A stretch of 64,000 nucleotides of DNA, taken from contig NC_018068.1 of NCBI RefSeq assembly GCF_000255115.2, positions 1,178,001-1,242,000 of the forward strand. The letters are read 5' to 3'. A program made the position numbers and the translations under genes. Below the pieces are notes generated by a model. The model was not told the DNA's origin. It searched no databases and saw nothing but the letters and a program-made list of their open reading frames with translations. The stretch comes from Desulfosporosinus acidiphilus SJ4. GTDB taxonomy: Bacteria > Bacillota > Desulfitobacteriia > Desulfitobacteriales > Desulfitobacteriaceae. Positions 12,708-17,201 of this stretch are shown here, piece after piece (positions within the stretch are counted from its first letter, which is position 1; each line of letters begins with the position of its first letter).

Positions 12708-12738
12708 AATATTTGAACTTTTAGCTCCTTAGTCCCTT

Positions 12739-12774
12739 AGCCCCCAGTCTTAATGGACAAGGGGCTTTTGTTTT
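12739..12774 (+). terminator. Terminator after the DegV gene
   Basis: The stem AGCCCC (12739-12744) / GGGGCT (12761-12766) with a 16-nt loop is followed by TTTTGTTTT. Confidence 0.75.
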
Positions 12775-12837
12775 GGGATTATTCGATAAAAACGTTTAAA
12801 CTTTTAGCTGTTTATTAATTACTATTTACCTAAATCA

Positions 12838-12956
12838 GAAGACCCTCATTTCTACAAGCGGGAGTGGTACTCCTTATTCTGCTTCGGTGGGGTAGAGTCC
12901 CCCTATTGAGGACTAGAGGTTCAACTTTAGTTGAACGAGTTCATAACGAGTTCATA
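12838..12956 (+). repeat. Dispersed hairpin element, family 2, copy 1
   Basis: The element contains TTCTACAAGCGGGAGT, a GCTTCGGTGGGGTAGAGTCC segment, and a perfect terminal hairpin GTTCAAC-TTTA-GTTGAAC (12919-12936) followed by GAGTTCAT. The 11-mer AACGAGTTCAT is then tandemly duplicated (12935-12956). Related copies lie at 19764-19933 and, inverted, at 34638-34702. The hairpin plus a fixed tail resembles ends of IS200/IS605-derived non-autonomous elements; that origin is inference. Confidence 0.65.
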
Positions 12957-12966
12957 ACGCACAAGT

Positions 12967-13010
12967 ATATCTTAATATAATTAACATACATATTAATTAT
13001 ATTAAGATAT
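12967..13010 (+). promoter_or_regulatory. Perfect 18-bp inverted repeat (operator candidate)
   Basis: Arms ATATCTTAATATAATTAA (12967-12984) and its exact complement (12993-13010) are separated by 8 bp. The right arm ends 3 bp before the -35 hexamer of the DUF2089 operon. An arm this long suggests a binding site for a dimeric or tetrameric regulator, possibly the HTH protein encoded by the first gene of the operon. Confidence 0.75.
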
Positions 13011-13013
13011 TTA

Positions 13014-13042
13014 TTGACATTATTAATATAAAGCTGTATTAT
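13014..13042 (+). promoter_or_regulatory. Sigma-A-type promoter of the DUF2089 operon
   Basis: TTGACA (13014-13019), a 17-bp spacer and TATTAT (13037-13042). This is close to consensus and lies about 58 bp upstream of the first start codon. Confidence 0.8.
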
Positions 13043-13099
13043 CTAATAAAAGATCTAAGAAAAGCAGTACTTAAGAATATTCTCTGAGAGGTGATAAGT

Positions 13100-13555
13100 T
13101 TGAATTATAAGATGCCCCATCGCTGTCCGGTTTGTGATCATGAATTAAAGATCAGCAAATTAACCTGTACTCACTGCCCGACTAAGATTGAAGGGGAATT
13201 TTCTTCCTGTAAATTTTGCAGACTCCCACGCAAACAGATTGTTTTTATAGAAGCATTTATAAAATGCCGGGGGAATATAAAAGAGGTTGAAAAAGAGCTT
13301 GGAATATCCTATCCTACCGTACGAAGCCGCTTAGACAGTGTTATTGAGGCTCTAAGTTACAGTTTTGAAAACGTCAAAGAATCTGCCCCTGAAAATTCAA
13401 TAGCAGATGAAGAACGATTGCGCAGGCAAGAGATACTTGAAGCTCTCAATCGAGGGGATATATCAGCCCAAGAAGCAACACGTCAGATGAGGAAACAGAA
13501 AGGTATAAATTCTGAAGAGGAAAACGGAACAGAAAGGAGCAACAACGGAGAATGA
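13100..13555 (+). CDS. DUF2089-family zinc-ribbon/HTH regulator
   Basis: The protein has about 151 residues. An N-terminal zinc ribbon (CPVCDHEL ... CTHC, then CKFC; two CxxC-type pairs within the first 45 residues) is followed by a helix-turn-helix (about 55-85, with KEVEKELGISYPTVRSRLDSV), the arrangement of DUF2089 proteins. The C-terminus (ILEALNRGDISAQEATRQM) is a short SHOCT-like helical hairpin, as in the next gene. The TTG at 13100 is preferred as start because GAGAGGTG ends six bases upstream; GTG 13091 overlaps that RBS. It is the first gene of a four-gene operon and a likely autoregulator at the palindrome 12967-13010. The stop overlaps the next start (ATGA). Confidence 0.8.
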   Translation: MNYKMPHRCPVCDHELKISKLTCTHCPTKIEGEFSSCKFCRLPRKQIVFIEAFIKCRGNIKEVEKELGISYPTVRSRLDSVIEALSYSFENVKESAPENSIADEERLRRQEILEALNRGDISAQEATRQMRKQKGINSEEENGTERSNNGE

Positions 13556-14007
13556 GCAGCGAAAAAATGAAGATTCTTGAGATGATTCAGGAGGGAAAAC
13601 TTACAGCTGCGGAGGGCATGGAACTATTGAAGGTTATGGAGGAAGAGTCTTCCTCCGAGAAGGAACCAGGGACTCAAGAGTTTGATCTGGAGAAAAAGGA
13701 AGTGCTTAGATCGGCCACGGGAGATCGATTCTTACGTGTTCGTGTTCTGGGGGAAAAAGCCCTGAAGGTCAATGTCAATGTCCCCTTGAGCCTAATTCGA
13801 TCCGCCTCTAAGCTTTTGGTTTATGCCATGAGTTTTGTCCCTGCCGATAAGCGAGCAGAACTGGAACAAAAGGGTCTTGATTTGCAGGCTTTGGATATTG
13901 AGGAACTGGTTCGTTTAGTTGAAGAAACCGTAGATGGCAAGATTGTGGATGTGGAAGTTACAGATCCTATGGAGGGCAGAATCAAGGTGGAAGTGTGTGT
14001 GGAGTAA
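13552..14007 (+). CDS. SHOCT-like domain protein of the YvlB type
   Basis: The 151-residue protein starts with a SHOCT-like helical hairpin (about 5-32, MKILEMIQEGKLTAAEGMELL), a sequence common at the N-terminus of envelope-stress proteins next to DUF2089 regulators. The remainder has a strand-rich part (RFLRVRVLGEKALKVNVNVP) and helices (LIRSASKLLVYAMSFVP, IEELVRLVEET). It shares the RVRV..VNVNVPL pattern with domains in YvlB-like proteins. There is no membrane segment. Translational coupling with the regulator upstream (ATGA overlap) supports a common role. The precise function is unknown; a part in sensing envelope state together with the YvlD-like membrane protein is inferred from context. 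Confidence 0.65.
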   Translation: MSSEKMKILEMIQEGKLTAAEGMELLKVMEEESSSEKEPGTQEFDLEKKEVLRSATGDRFLRVRVLGEKALKVNVNVPLSLIRSASKLLVYAMSFVPADKRAELEQKGLDLQALDIEELVRLVEETVDGKIVDVEVTDPMEGRIKVEVCVE

Positions 14008-14323
14008 TTATGCCAAGGTATTAATCATCAGAGTAAAGTTAAAAGGGAGCTGGGGTTTGCTGTTTCCTGTTCCTGTCTTGGTCGTAGATGAATTTCTTGA
14101 AACCTTGACGGAATTGGTATGGGTAGGGGAAATGACATTAAAATGTCTTCCCCTTCATAAAGATCATAAGACCCGGAAACTAATGAGTTGGACTAAAGCT
14201 ATTTCTCCAAGCGGCCTGATGGAAAGTTTTCAGGGAGTGATTAAAGAATTGGGCAGATACAAGGGTCTGAACATTGTTGAGGTGAAAACCGGAGAAGTTT
14301 GGGTTAAAATTAGCTTAAAGTGA
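13997..14323 (+). CDS. Small protein of the DUF2089/SHOCT operon, unknown function
   Basis: This reading frame of about 108 residues follows the SHOCT protein with an 11-bp overlap. GTG 13997 is taken as the start because AAGGTGG precedes it by six bases; the same frame continues upstream inside the previous gene, which is probably not translated. The sequence (VLIIRVKLKGSWGLLFPVPVLVVDEFLETL, split by a Trp-rich turn, then a C-terminal strand LNIVEVKTGEVWVKISL) has the same strand-helix-strand order as the second half of the preceding protein. It may therefore be a diverged repeat of that domain. No family is recognised with confidence. Confidence 0.55.
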   Translation: MWSNYAKVLIIRVKLKGSWGLLFPVPVLVVDEFLETLTELVWVGEMTLKCLPLHKDHKTRKLMSWTKAISPSGLMESFQGVIKELGRYKGLNIVEVKTGEVWVKISLK

Positions 14324-14337
14324 AACGGGGGTATTCG

Positions 14338-14673
14338 ATGAAACGACCTATTTATCGTATAATAGTAAACACACTTGTATTTATGGTGGCTGCACAATTT
14401 CTCCCAATTCACGCATCTAGCCCTCTGCATTATTTAGGAGCCGGTATAATTCTCTGGATCGTTAATTTGTTGATTCGTCCGGTCTTGATTGTCTTAACTA
14501 TTCCTTTAAATCTCCTCACATTAGGAATTTTCACTTTTATTATTAATACGTGGATGATCTTGCTTACGAGCGGACTTGTGCCTGGTTTTTATGTTCATGG
14601 TTTCGGGACGGCCCTTTTAGTATCGCTGATGGTGTCTTTGGCCAACTGGGGGATTAAAAAAATAGGCAGCTAG
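14338..14673 (+). CDS. YvlD-like phage-holin-IV family membrane protein
   Basis: The small integral membrane protein of 111 residues has four hydrophobic segments (about 5-22, 30-48, 55-80 and 86-105). Segment two contains the family-typical LGAGIILWIVNLLIRPVL, and the third PLNLLTLGIFTFIINTWMI. Both match the pfam04020/YvlD group of phage holin IV-like proteins. In Bacillus, yvlD lies with yvlB and yvlC in an operon controlled by envelope-stress signals; the gene order here is analogous. The ATG at 14338 is the chosen start because GGGGG precedes it; the in-frame GTG at 14320 overlaps the upstream stop. This is the last gene of the operon; its stop codon lies in the terminator stem-loop. Confidence 0.82.
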   Translation: MKRPIYRIIVNTLVFMVAAQFLPIHASSPLHYLGAGIILWIVNLLIRPVLIVLTIPLNLLTLGIFTFIINTWMILLTSGLVPGFYVHGFGTALLVSLMVSLANWGIKKIGS

Positions 14674-14906: not shown

Positions 14907-17201
14907 TTAGTTATTAGGTGTTGGGTTAGTGTAATAGTTATAAATTCCATGAAAGACTGCCGTGGCAACGTTTTTTCGGAAGGTGTCGTTCTGTAACCTT
15001 GCTTCTTCATAGGGACTGGAAATGAAGGCGGCTTCTAATAAGACGGCGGGCATTGTTGTGTATTTTATAACATAAAAGTTTGCTGCTTTAACTCCACGGC
15101 TGTTGGTTTTTACGGTGTCAATCATGGCATTTTCAATACTGCTGGCAAGTTGCTGGCTCTTTTGCTCCTGAGGGTTGTCCTGGGAATAATAAGTTGTTGT
15201 TCCTTGAACAGAAGGATTGCTAAAGGAGTCGTTATGGATAGATATAAAAAGGTCGGGGTTGCTTTTGGAAGCTTCGTCCACCCGGGCTTGCAGATCATTA
15301 ATTTCAGAATAACTGCTAGCCGGAGAGGAGTCATCGCTGCGGGTTAAAATAACCTTTGCCCCTGCTTGCTGCAGGATCGAACTTAAATCTTGAGCAATAG
15401 CTAACGTGTTGTCTTTTTCATAGGTATGGTTAGGGCCGACTGCTCCGGTATCGGGACCTCCGTGTCCGGGGTCTACCATGATGGTCTTGCCGCTTAAACA
15501 ATTTGCCGGGATTCCAGAAAAAGGATCTGCCAGTACTTCTTTAGAAGGATCGTAATTCGACGTTGAGGAAGAATCACTCGAGGAAGAATTACCTGTCGAA
15601 GAATCACCTGAAGAAGGAGAAGAGGGTGGTTGAACTGTAGTGGGAAGCGAGGGGAAATCTTTTAAATTAGAGCTGTAACTAGAGGAAGCTTTTCCTTCCA
15701 TAATGGCTTCGGAGGTTGCACTAATAATACCTGTTCCTCCAAGAATATAGATCTTACCATTCGGACTCAGGTCAATGGCAGATGTTGAGGCTGCAGACGT
15801 TGGTGAGCCGCTGGACACAGTCGAGAGTGTAATATAACTGTCAGATACCCAACCGGTTGTTGATTGATAAGTGGTTTGGTACCAATGGTTCTGATAGTTA
15901 GTGAGAGTGAGTGTTGTGCCTTGAGGTATGGTTGTCAGAAGTTTCCCGGATGCGGAGGGAGTATCTCTTAGGTTTAATCCACCGGATGCATTGACGGTTC
16001 CTGATTTAGAGTCACTGCTGGGTGTAGCAGCCGAAGAAGACCCTGACGTCGAGGAGATACTGAGGTATTGATCAGATACCCAGCCGGTTTGGGATTGGTA
16101 GGTTGTTTGATACCAGTGATTGTTATAACTCCCGAGTTCAAGGGTTGTCCCTTTAGGGATAGTTACCAATAGTTTTCCTGAAGAGGAAGGCGTGTCACGA
16201 AGATTTAATCCGGCTGAAGAAGTAACGACCCCGGTTTCGGATCCGCTGCTGGAAGCTGATGTGGATGAGGAAGTTGAAGTTGAAACCTTTGAGGCAGGAG
16301 GTTCTACAACCATATGTAAACGCATGATGCTATAAACAGAAGAAGGAATGTCATTTTGTTCTGTAAGTAAAAGAGGAGCCTTTTCTTTGGAGGCTAGAAC
16401 GGTTCCGGCGACAGCGTCCGGAAAGGTGACTCCGGAGGCCAAGAAGAGATCATTGGATTGGTAGATATCCTTCATAGTTGAAACAACTTGGGCGTTAGTA
16501 TCATAGCGGTCCTGACCACCAATACGTGTTTCAATGGTAAAGTTATTTTTAGTTAATTCTGCAGATGGTACGACAACCTCTCCTCCGATGACGGTGATAT
16601 GTTTAGGCGAAGTTTCGTTTAAGTATTTTAGGTCAGAGTCGGGCAAGGTGGTTGAAGTAAGTACGATGGGTATTTGTTTAATCCCGGCATAGGTTGCTGC
16701 TGACAGAGCATCGGGGAAATTATCTCCATTAACGATAATCAAAGAATCCGAGGACAAACGTTTGGCAAGGAGAACGGAGGTCTCATAGCGATCAACCCCT
16801 CCGATACGTTCCCAGGTTAACGATAATTGTTCAAGGTCTTTCTCAATCTTGGGCTTTAAGCAGGCAGTTCCGCCAAGAAGAACGATTTTCGTAGGTTTTA
16901 GGCGCTGCAATTCTTGAATGACCCTGGGGTCAAGCGTATCCCCGCCTGTCAAAAGGATTGGAGCATCCAAGCAGACGGCATAAGGAGTGGCAGCAATGGA
17001 ATCCGGATAATCAGAGGCTTCGCATAAGATAACCGTTTGCGCCGAATCCCAGCCTTTCTGCGAGATTTTAAGGGCTGTTTCAATCTGGTCCTGCCCAGCT
17101 ATTCTCTCGGTCACATAAGCCAAAGGACTTGCTTGAGTAACTATGGGCATACAAAATATAACTGCAAGCGATACAATCATCGCTGTTATGATTTTTTTCA
17201 C
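14907..17201 (-). CDS. Cell-wall N-acetylmuramoyl-L-alanine amidase with CWB2 and SH3 domains
   Basis: The exported 764-residue autolysin has a signal peptide (1-24), CWB2 unit 1 (about 30-128), unit 2 (130-225) and the first part of unit 3 (226-300). Two bacterial SH3 domains follow (about 325-381 and 400-457, each with GLNLRDTPS..GKLL and WYQTTYQS.TGWVSD). The missing end of CWB2 unit 3 (GKIYILGGTGIIS, 482-494) comes next, then a Ser-rich linker and an Amidase_3 domain (571-755). The zinc ligands His580, Glu595 and His656 and the catalytic Glu723 are visible (VDPGHGG, YEKDN, ISIHND, LLEAAF). It cleaves the MurNAc-L-Ala bond. The start is GTG 17201 with AAAGGATGA before it. The insertion of SH3 domains within a CWB2 unit is unusual. 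Confidence 0.9.
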   Translation of the reverse strand: MKKIITAMIVSLAVIFCMPIVTQASPLAYVTERIAGQDQIETALKISQKGWDSAQTVILCEASDYPDSIAATPYAVCLDAPILLTGGDTLDPRVIQELQRLKPTKIVLLGGTACLKPKIEKDLEQLSLTWERIGGVDRYETSVLLAKRLSSDSLIIVNGDNFPDALSAATYAGIKQIPIVLTSTTLPDSDLKYLNETSPKHITVIGGEVVVPSAELTKNNFTIETRIGGQDRYDTNAQVVSTMKDIYQSNDLFLASGVTFPDAVAGTVLASKEKAPLLLTEQNDIPSSVYSIMRLHMVVEPPASKVSTSTSSSTSASSSGSETGVVTSSAGLNLRDTPSSSGKLLVTIPKGTTLELGSYNNHWYQTTYQSQTGWVSDQYLSISSTSGSSSAATPSSDSKSGTVNASGGLNLRDTPSASGKLLTTIPQGTTLTLTNYQNHWYQTTYQSTTGWVSDSYITLSTVSSGSPTSAASTSAIDLSPNGKIYILGGTGIISATSEAIMEGKASSSYSSNLKDFPSLPTTVQPPSSPSSGDSSTGNSSSSDSSSTSNYDPSKEVLADPFSGIPANCLSGKTIMVDPGHGGPDTGAVGPNHTYEKDNTLAIAQDLSSILQQAGAKVILTRSDDSSPASSYSEINDLQARVDEASKSNPDLFISIHNDSFSNPSVQGTTTYYSQDNPQEQKSQQLASSIENAMIDTVKTNSRGVKAANFYVIKYTTMPAVLLEAAFISSPYEEARLQNDTFRKNVATAVFHGIYNYYTNPTPNN

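Follow-up and report, generated by a model that had tools for sequence, protein, structure and literature searches.

Tandem TTAA-N5-TTAA boxes with a 21-bp period over the promoter of a DUF2089 operon in Desulfosporosinus acidiphilus, a probable operator of its own regulator

The DUF2089/SHOCT-like/Toastrack gene context has been linked to the phage-shock-protein network (PMC11237479). Following the domain division of that paper, the regulator of this system shares its architecture with the DUF2089 protein of the window (the 64-kb stretch of D. acidiphilus DNA analysed here), namely a zinc ribbon, an HTH and possibly a SHOCT-like end, and a SHOCT-like partner gene stands beside the DUF2089 gene in both cases. 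A role in transducing membrane signals was predicted, and the parts of the paper available to us give no operator or DNA target (PMC11237479).

DUF2089 genes are also found in the leaderless bacteriocin clusters of bawcin (PMC10707071), enterocin DD14 (PMC7332713) and thucin A (PMC9484092). DUF2089 proteins of 89–98 residues are described there (98 for bawcin, PMC10707071; 89 for enterocin DD14, PMC7332713). The function of the enterocin DD14 protein was given as unknown (PMC7332713), and the thucin A protein and its membrane neighbour were listed as possibly involved in immunity (PMC9484092). No operator for DUF2089 is reported in the available parts of these three papers. One of them predicted an mRNA secondary structure just 5' of the DUF2089 gene ddC, between ddB and ddC (PMC7332713). 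Although DUF2089 is found over the Pfam cut-off in at least 139 of 398 genomes of the phylum, no operator or DNA target for it was found in the open-access literature searched.

Phased tandem operators are a general kind of site through which autorepressors act on their own promoter: repeated symmetric sites lie on one helix face and overlap the −35 and −10 elements. The array in the window differs from this general kind in its regulator family and in the sequence of its boxes.

The DUF2089 operon and its products

The DUF2089 gene follows degV and is succeeded by genes for a SHOCT-like partner, a small unnamed protein and a PF04020 protein with four transmembrane (TM) segments (Table 1). An earlier note on this DNA had described the first product as a zinc-ribbon/HTH DUF2089 protein, and both domains scored over their cut-offs (84.1 bits against 33.4 for the HTH, PF09862, and 52.5 against 27.6 for the zinc ribbon, PF22747). 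The zinc-ribbon residues C9, C12, C23 and C26 are invariant in 13 aligned sequences and in a further alignment of 70 that were pre-selected for the zinc-ribbon pattern. The C-terminus gave an E value of 0.081 with PF22746, which is below the cut-off; two helices are modeled there at residues 100–134.

Table 1. Coordinates of the promoter elements and genes, numbered from the first base of the window
Feature	Coordinates	Strand	Description
Perfect inverted repeat	12967-12984 / 12993-13010	no strand	18-bp arms (left arm ATATCTTAATATAATTAA), exact reverse complements; 8-bp spacer
Box 1	12972..12984	no strand	TTAATATAATTAA; TTAA-N5-TTAA; inner part of left arm
Box 2	12993..13005	no strand	TTAATTATATTAA; 21 bp past box 1; inner part of right arm
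Box 3	13014..13026	no strand	TTGACATTATTAA; 21 bp past box 2; first six bases are the −35 hexamer
Box 4	13035..13047	no strand	TGTATTATCTAAT; degenerate in the window; contains the −10 TATTAT; genus consensus TTTATTATCTTAA
Sigma-A-type promoter	13014..13042	+	TTGACA-N17-TATTAT (−10 at 13037-13042); 11/12 to consensus; conserved in the genus
DUF2089 protein	13100..13555	+	Zinc ribbon PF22747, HTH PF09862, two C-terminal helices possibly SHOCT-like
Partner	13552..14007	+	N-terminal SHOCT-like domain PF22746 and unnamed alpha/beta domain; 4-bp overlap with DUF2089 gene
Third gene	13934..14323	+	Mechanical ORF, true start probably after 14007; small unnamed conserved family, 22/116 loci
4-TM protein	14338..14673	+	PF04020 family; sequence cluster in 32/116 loci

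The structure model of the DUF2089 protein has a mean pLDDT of 86, and the HTH helices span residues 44–55, 60–67 and 71–84. Residues 37–87 were superimposed on DosR (Z 7.0, rmsd 1.7, 50 residues aligned), CbnR (Z 7.0, rmsd 1.3, 44 aligned), Fis (Z 6.7, rmsd 4.4, 46 aligned) and FliA (Z 6.5, rmsd 1.7, 51 aligned). The model therefore suggests an HTH of a common DNA-binding fold, and tied Z scores of about 7 or less may mean a common arrangement only. The likeness to LuxR-type, LysR-type, Fis and sigma-4 HTH domains is one of fold; DUF2089 differs from them in its probable tandem TTAA-N5-TTAA target, and its zinc ribbon and C-terminal helices are not covered by the match. A sequence search for solved DUF2089 homologues returned none that was convincing (best E 0.003, over 18 residues), and a Foldseek search with the model returned none at E ≤ 0.001.

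The SHOCT-like domain of the partner scored 36.0 bits against a cut-off of 27, and a fold search with this protein gave no match at E ≤ 0.001. Toastrack (DUF4097, PF13349) was not matched in the partner of the window, unlike in the described Toastrack context (PMC11237479, as far as available), and was found in the partners of 4 of 7 hand-picked relatives. SHOCT-like proteins of one single-linkage cluster are encoded in 98 of 116 loci, and in 92 loci the first gene downstream belongs to this cluster; of 112 proteins encoded first downstream, 77 carry near the N-terminus a SHOCT-like motif as defined in this analysis. No Pfam match was obtained for the two members of the third-gene family that were scanned. 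Relatives of the third gene were seen at L049:1046-1372 and in L041, and once seemingly fused behind a SHOCT-like segment (L239, 3077-3481). Downstream on the opposite strand lies a large gene (14907-17201), the translation of which ends in what we take to be an N-acetylmuramoyl-L-alanine amidase domain.

From a palindrome to an array within the genus

The earlier note had pointed to a perfect 18-bp palindrome next to a near-consensus promoter, and the sequence agrees on both counts: all 18 bp are paired (18/18) across the 8-bp spacer, the palindrome ends 3 bp before TTGACA (13014-13019), and the promoter matches the consensus at 11 of 12 positions with a 17-bp spacer. No other inverted repeat in the window has perfect arms of at least 18 bp and a spacer of at most 20 bp. 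With up to three mismatches allowed, the full pattern had no match in 100 dinucleotide shuffles of the window, and its 34-bp core occurs at one place in the 4.99-Mb genome; the palindrome is therefore not a chance occurrence.

DUF2089 genes are present in 26 of the 29 genomes of the genus, including this one; upstream DNA was usable for all but L002, which is truncated by a contig edge, and this left 25 loci. The 18-bp palindrome did not hold up as the operator unit among these 25. The pairing is 18/18 in the locus of the window only, the next best loci having 16 and 15 paired positions, and the average is 10.7 of 18 (own locus included). A search for the palindrome upstream of orthologous operons had been set beforehand as a test, and the long palindrome is absent there. 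The TTAA positions of the arms pair well (7.12 of 8 on average). Within loci, the N5 positions pair no better than arms taken from different genomes (2.04 vs 2.15 of 5), nor do the outer flanks (1.56 vs 1.70 of 5). Because pairing beyond TTAA does not exceed that between genomes, the dyad is best read as two boxes of a longer array, made perfect by chance or by recent change. By the same comparison, its perfection is a species-specific extension of boxes 1 and 2.

The palindrome consists of two copies of a 13-bp box, TTAA-N5-TTAA. The boxes recur with a period of exactly 21 bp, which is two helical turns, and these symmetric elements overlap both the −35 and the −10 of the DUF2089 gene's own promoter, the −10 box being degenerate in the window. 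The upstream DNA of the 25 loci aligns on TTGACA, with boxes 42 and 21 bp before it and the −35 as the third box. Boxes 2 and 3 are in register in 25/25 loci. Box 2 is the best conserved, with at most one mismatch of 8 in all 25, and box 1 reaches this level in 21 of 25 (two or three mismatches in L004, L011, L013 and L022). TTGACA is exact in every locus; in 21 of the 25 the second TTAA of box 3 is intact, and in 21 box 3 departs from the template solely by the G of TTGACA. The genus logo contains a fourth box, TTTATTATCTTAA, which holds the −10 and is weak in this window. As judged from these alignments, the conserved element is the tandem box array, which reaches past the reported palindrome into the promoter.

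A looser pattern was searched across the genus. It found a site at the DUF2089 promoter with at most one mismatch in 22 of 26 DUF2089 genomes and with two mismatches in three, the remaining one being cut off. The sole site in the genus with at most one mismatch that lies away from DUF2089 is G028:C1:5123622-5123655 (one mismatch), a possible second target. The three genus genomes that lack DUF2089 also lack the partner gene (3/3) and so cannot separate the regulator from the operon. No partner match was found in 37 class genomes without an over-cut-off DUF2089, in a search that had no positive control.

In the D. acidiphilus genome, a two-box search with up to two mismatches returned 12 rows, of which 4 are at this promoter and 8 are elsewhere with two mismatches; the reversed control returned 7. 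A two-box array with at most one mismatch occurs at this promoter only. A wider regulon in this genome was rejected on the comparison of the 8 rows elsewhere with the 7 of the reversed control.

The stretch just 5' of the array (12920-12957) contains a short inverted repeat, TTCAACT-TT-AGTTGAA, and after it two tandem copies of CGAGTTCATAA.

Arrays at DUF2089 genes across Bacillota

DUF2089 was matched in 38 of 45 genomes of the family, 50 of 82 of the class and at least 158 of 398 of the phylum. Upstream DNA was drawn for 107 further matches and for named loci, of which the best 80 among 580 were kept. In total, 251 loci gave 230 distinct upstream DNAs; once the proteins had been clustered at 75% identity, 115 loci from beyond the genus remained. 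The promoter sets exclude L002, which is at a contig edge, L029, which scores below the cut-off, and the pattern locus L001, and ten over-cut-off matches fall outside the sample (G043, G134, G184, G246, G258, G282, the second of G422, G436, the second of G045 and G462). The loci were chosen as the best family matches, genomes are shared between samples, and metagenome-assembled genomes (MAGs) dominate some clades.

Distances between TTAA words were counted in 88 non-redundant upstream regions outside the genus, a procedure that presumes no motif beyond TTAA. Compared with dinucleotide shuffles, the main peaks were at 21 bp (67 vs 4.3) and 9 bp (56 vs 4.0), followed by 30 bp (35 vs 3.7) and 12 bp (27 vs 4.1), with lesser ones at 31, 42, 13 and 22 bp. 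The peaks at 21, 9, 30 and 12 bp are those expected from a repeated TTAA-N5-TTAA-N8. Among 23 testable frequent four-letter words in the 115 loci, TTAA was the most 21-periodic, with 111 pairs at 21 bp against a mean of 20 per distance.

Three-box arrays with the 21-bp period were scored against 300 shuffles for each locus. They reached p ≤ 0.01 in 68 and p ≤ 0.05 in 84 of the 115 non-redundant DUF2089 loci, compared with 5 and 13 of 196 control promoters (DNA 5' of other genes from the named loci). Two of the five control positives are the two sides of the intergenic region before the L239 operon, in which DUF2089 is the second gene. Scores of 20 or higher, out of 24, were obtained for 44 of the 115 loci with DUF2089 and for 3 of the 196 controls. 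The mean best score was highest at a period of 21 bp (17.6; shuffled 13.4), followed by 22 bp (15.7) and 15 bp (15.5), and was at most 14.6 at 20 and 23 bp. Rows without the zinc ribbon are possibly under-scored, owing to start positions, in both this scoring and the TTAA-distance count. A weight matrix of the box, for which boxes fitting the template were chosen, is descriptive only.

In 31 of the 115 loci the array had p > 0.05, and in one of these, L239, another gene precedes DUF2089 in the operon, which accounts for the result. In L182 (Acididesulfobacillus), which is outside the 31, the boxes are at −313, −292 and −271, further than 250 bp from the gene, because a tandem repeat lies between the gene and the array. 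The repeat in this 5' leader, between the promoter array and the start codon, is a tandem array of ~17-bp CTTTGTCAGACGAATAC-like units. In L204 (Pelosinus), a further example of a very long palindrome, AT-rich and made up of the same box in opposite orientations (GACATTAACAAAATTAATT...AATTAATTTTGTTAATGTC), lies 5' of DUF2089.

The placement of the array relative to the promoter varies. TTGAC is in register with the boxes in 40 of the 68 significant arrays outside the genus. It mostly represents a −35 with a good second TTAA, although not in a few loci (L063, L064 and L072). In L063, L106 and L114, the scored array starts at the −10 and runs downstream.

A second subfamily of DUF2089 proteins, of about 100 residues and without the zinc ribbon, has other neighbours and two boxes of the same type. 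The best spacing was 22 bp in 11 of 15 of these loci and 21 bp in 2 of 15. In 7 of 15 the boxes come directly after TTGACT, and in 13 of 15 the end of the second box is 10–29 bp from the start codon that follows. A small membrane protein, not a SHOCT-like one, is the product of the next gene in at least eight loci. The bacteriocin clusters, as far as described in the parts available, resemble this subfamily in having DUF2089 beside a small membrane protein (PMC10707071, PMC7332713, PMC9484092). A two-box array (p 0.026) was found at a plasmid DUF2089 copy close to a gene of the aureocin A53 family. The predicted structure between ddB and ddC (PMC7332713) might be an operator like the arrays described here.

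Plasmid homologues were scored at periods of 21 and 22 bp with 500 mononucleotide shuffles; eight were opened of the 48 matches listed (81 and 8 records held a match). Two- or three-box arrays were found for those of Niallia, Paraclostridium and Priestia (p ≤ 0.01) and of Staphylococcus (p about 0.02), and the array of the Lactococcus homologue was not significant. The homologues opened from outside Bacillota gave no convincing array: none was found for Phocaeicola and Legionella, and two boxes of the Embleya homologue had p 0.01 with 11 of 16 positions matching. The short form of DUF2089 had no match in the phage collection searched.

The association was also examined in the reverse direction, from site to gene. 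A strict pattern, in which a box and a −35 box stand 21 bp apart and mismatches are disallowed, was searched in 398 genomes and gave 9 sites in 9 genomes, compared with none for the reversed control. Eight of the nine begin 204–230 bp before a DUF2089 HTH. The ninth (G233) reads towards a contig end about 16 bp away, in a genome that is 85% complete and has no DUF2089 among the matches listed. The pattern recovers 8 of at least 139 genomes with an over-cut-off DUF2089, which speaks for specificity, not universality. From these sequence comparisons, the TTAA-N5-TTAA array with its 21-bp period tracks DUF2089 genes across many Bacillota, and it is very probably the DNA site through which DUF2089 proteins control their own membrane-associated operon.

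Autorepression and competing readings

We consider the array to be, most probably, the operator of an autoregulated operon in which DUF2089 acts as an autorepressor stacked on its own promoter. The earlier note had proposed a self-recognised operator that would define a DNA target for this family. The operator idea is well supported by the comparison, but the 18-bp palindrome as its unit is not. Each 13-bp box is symmetric about its centre and would take one DUF2089 dimer through the HTH. Because the period is 21 bp, successive dimers would lie on the same face of the DNA, where they may bind cooperatively. Since the boxes include the −35 and −10, bound DUF2089 would exclude RNA polymerase and repress its own operon. 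With a SHOCT-like partner and a 4-TM protein among the products of the operon, its signal is probably related to the envelope. More speculatively, these two proteins might relay an envelope signal that lifts the repression, and the SHOCT-like domain of the partner might pair with the C-terminal helices of DUF2089. Such an anti-repressor role, suggested by domain resemblance, is speculative.

The main competitor is that DUF2089 binds the array to activate the promoter, alone or in combination with repression, and that boxes 1 and 2 recruit the polymerase. These boxes precede the −35, where activator sites are commonly located, and box 2 is the best conserved of all. However, a promoter with 11 of 12 consensus positions and a 17-bp spacer should need no help, boxes 3 and 4 contain the −35 and −10 in the genus, and the array extends downstream from the −10 in three loci (L063, L106 and L114). 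Autorepression is favoured because an activator is not expected over the −35 and −10 of a near-consensus promoter or downstream of the −10, and we regard activation as unlikely.

It is less likely still that another transcription factor binds the boxes and controls the operon. The tie between array and DUF2089 is a comparative one, which leaves some room for such a factor. Against it, the boxes go with DUF2089 genes in two subfamilies that have different neighbours, all eight interpretable sites among the nine strict ones in 398 genomes precede DUF2089 genes, and good copies were not found elsewhere in the D. acidiphilus genome. That the tract is an UP element or generic AT-rich promoter DNA is very improbable: it is A+T-rich and upstream of a strong promoter, but dinucleotide shuffles abolish the 21-bp periodicity, few control promoters show it, and there are arrays downstream of the −10. 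An RNA hairpin (the degV terminator) or cruciform-forming element, to which the perfect 18-bp dyad downstream of degV could point, was rejected as scarcely credible, given that the genus as a whole does not keep the dyad, which also lacks a G-C stem, and that a separate G+C-rich hairpin with a T-rich tail (12716-12775, −17.5 kcal/mol as RNA, absent from the terminator scan) sits 5' of the palindrome, between it and degV.

A defined operator would make DUF2089, a domain of unknown function, a testable regulator and supply probes for gel-shift and reporter assays. It would also offer a handle on the signal sensed by the SHOCT-like/4-TM modules and suggests a control point in leaderless bacteriocin clusters. 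A broader and tentative proposal, which may or may not hold as a whole, is that DUF2089 proteins are Bacillota-wide autorepressors reading TTAA-N5-TTAA, at 21 bp in the zinc-ribbon form and mostly at 22 bp in the short form, from an operator woven into the −35 and −10. They would govern membrane-surveillance modules, among them the SHOCT/Toastrack operons and, in leaderless bacteriocin clusters, the immunity side, and the switch would be SHOCT-SHOCT pairing of the regulator with its partner.

More than one DUF2089 gene, with zinc-ribbon and short forms included, was seen in G014 (L025 and L028), G032, G068 and G307. Genomes with both forms are suited to tests of cross-talk between the 21- and 22-bp arrays.
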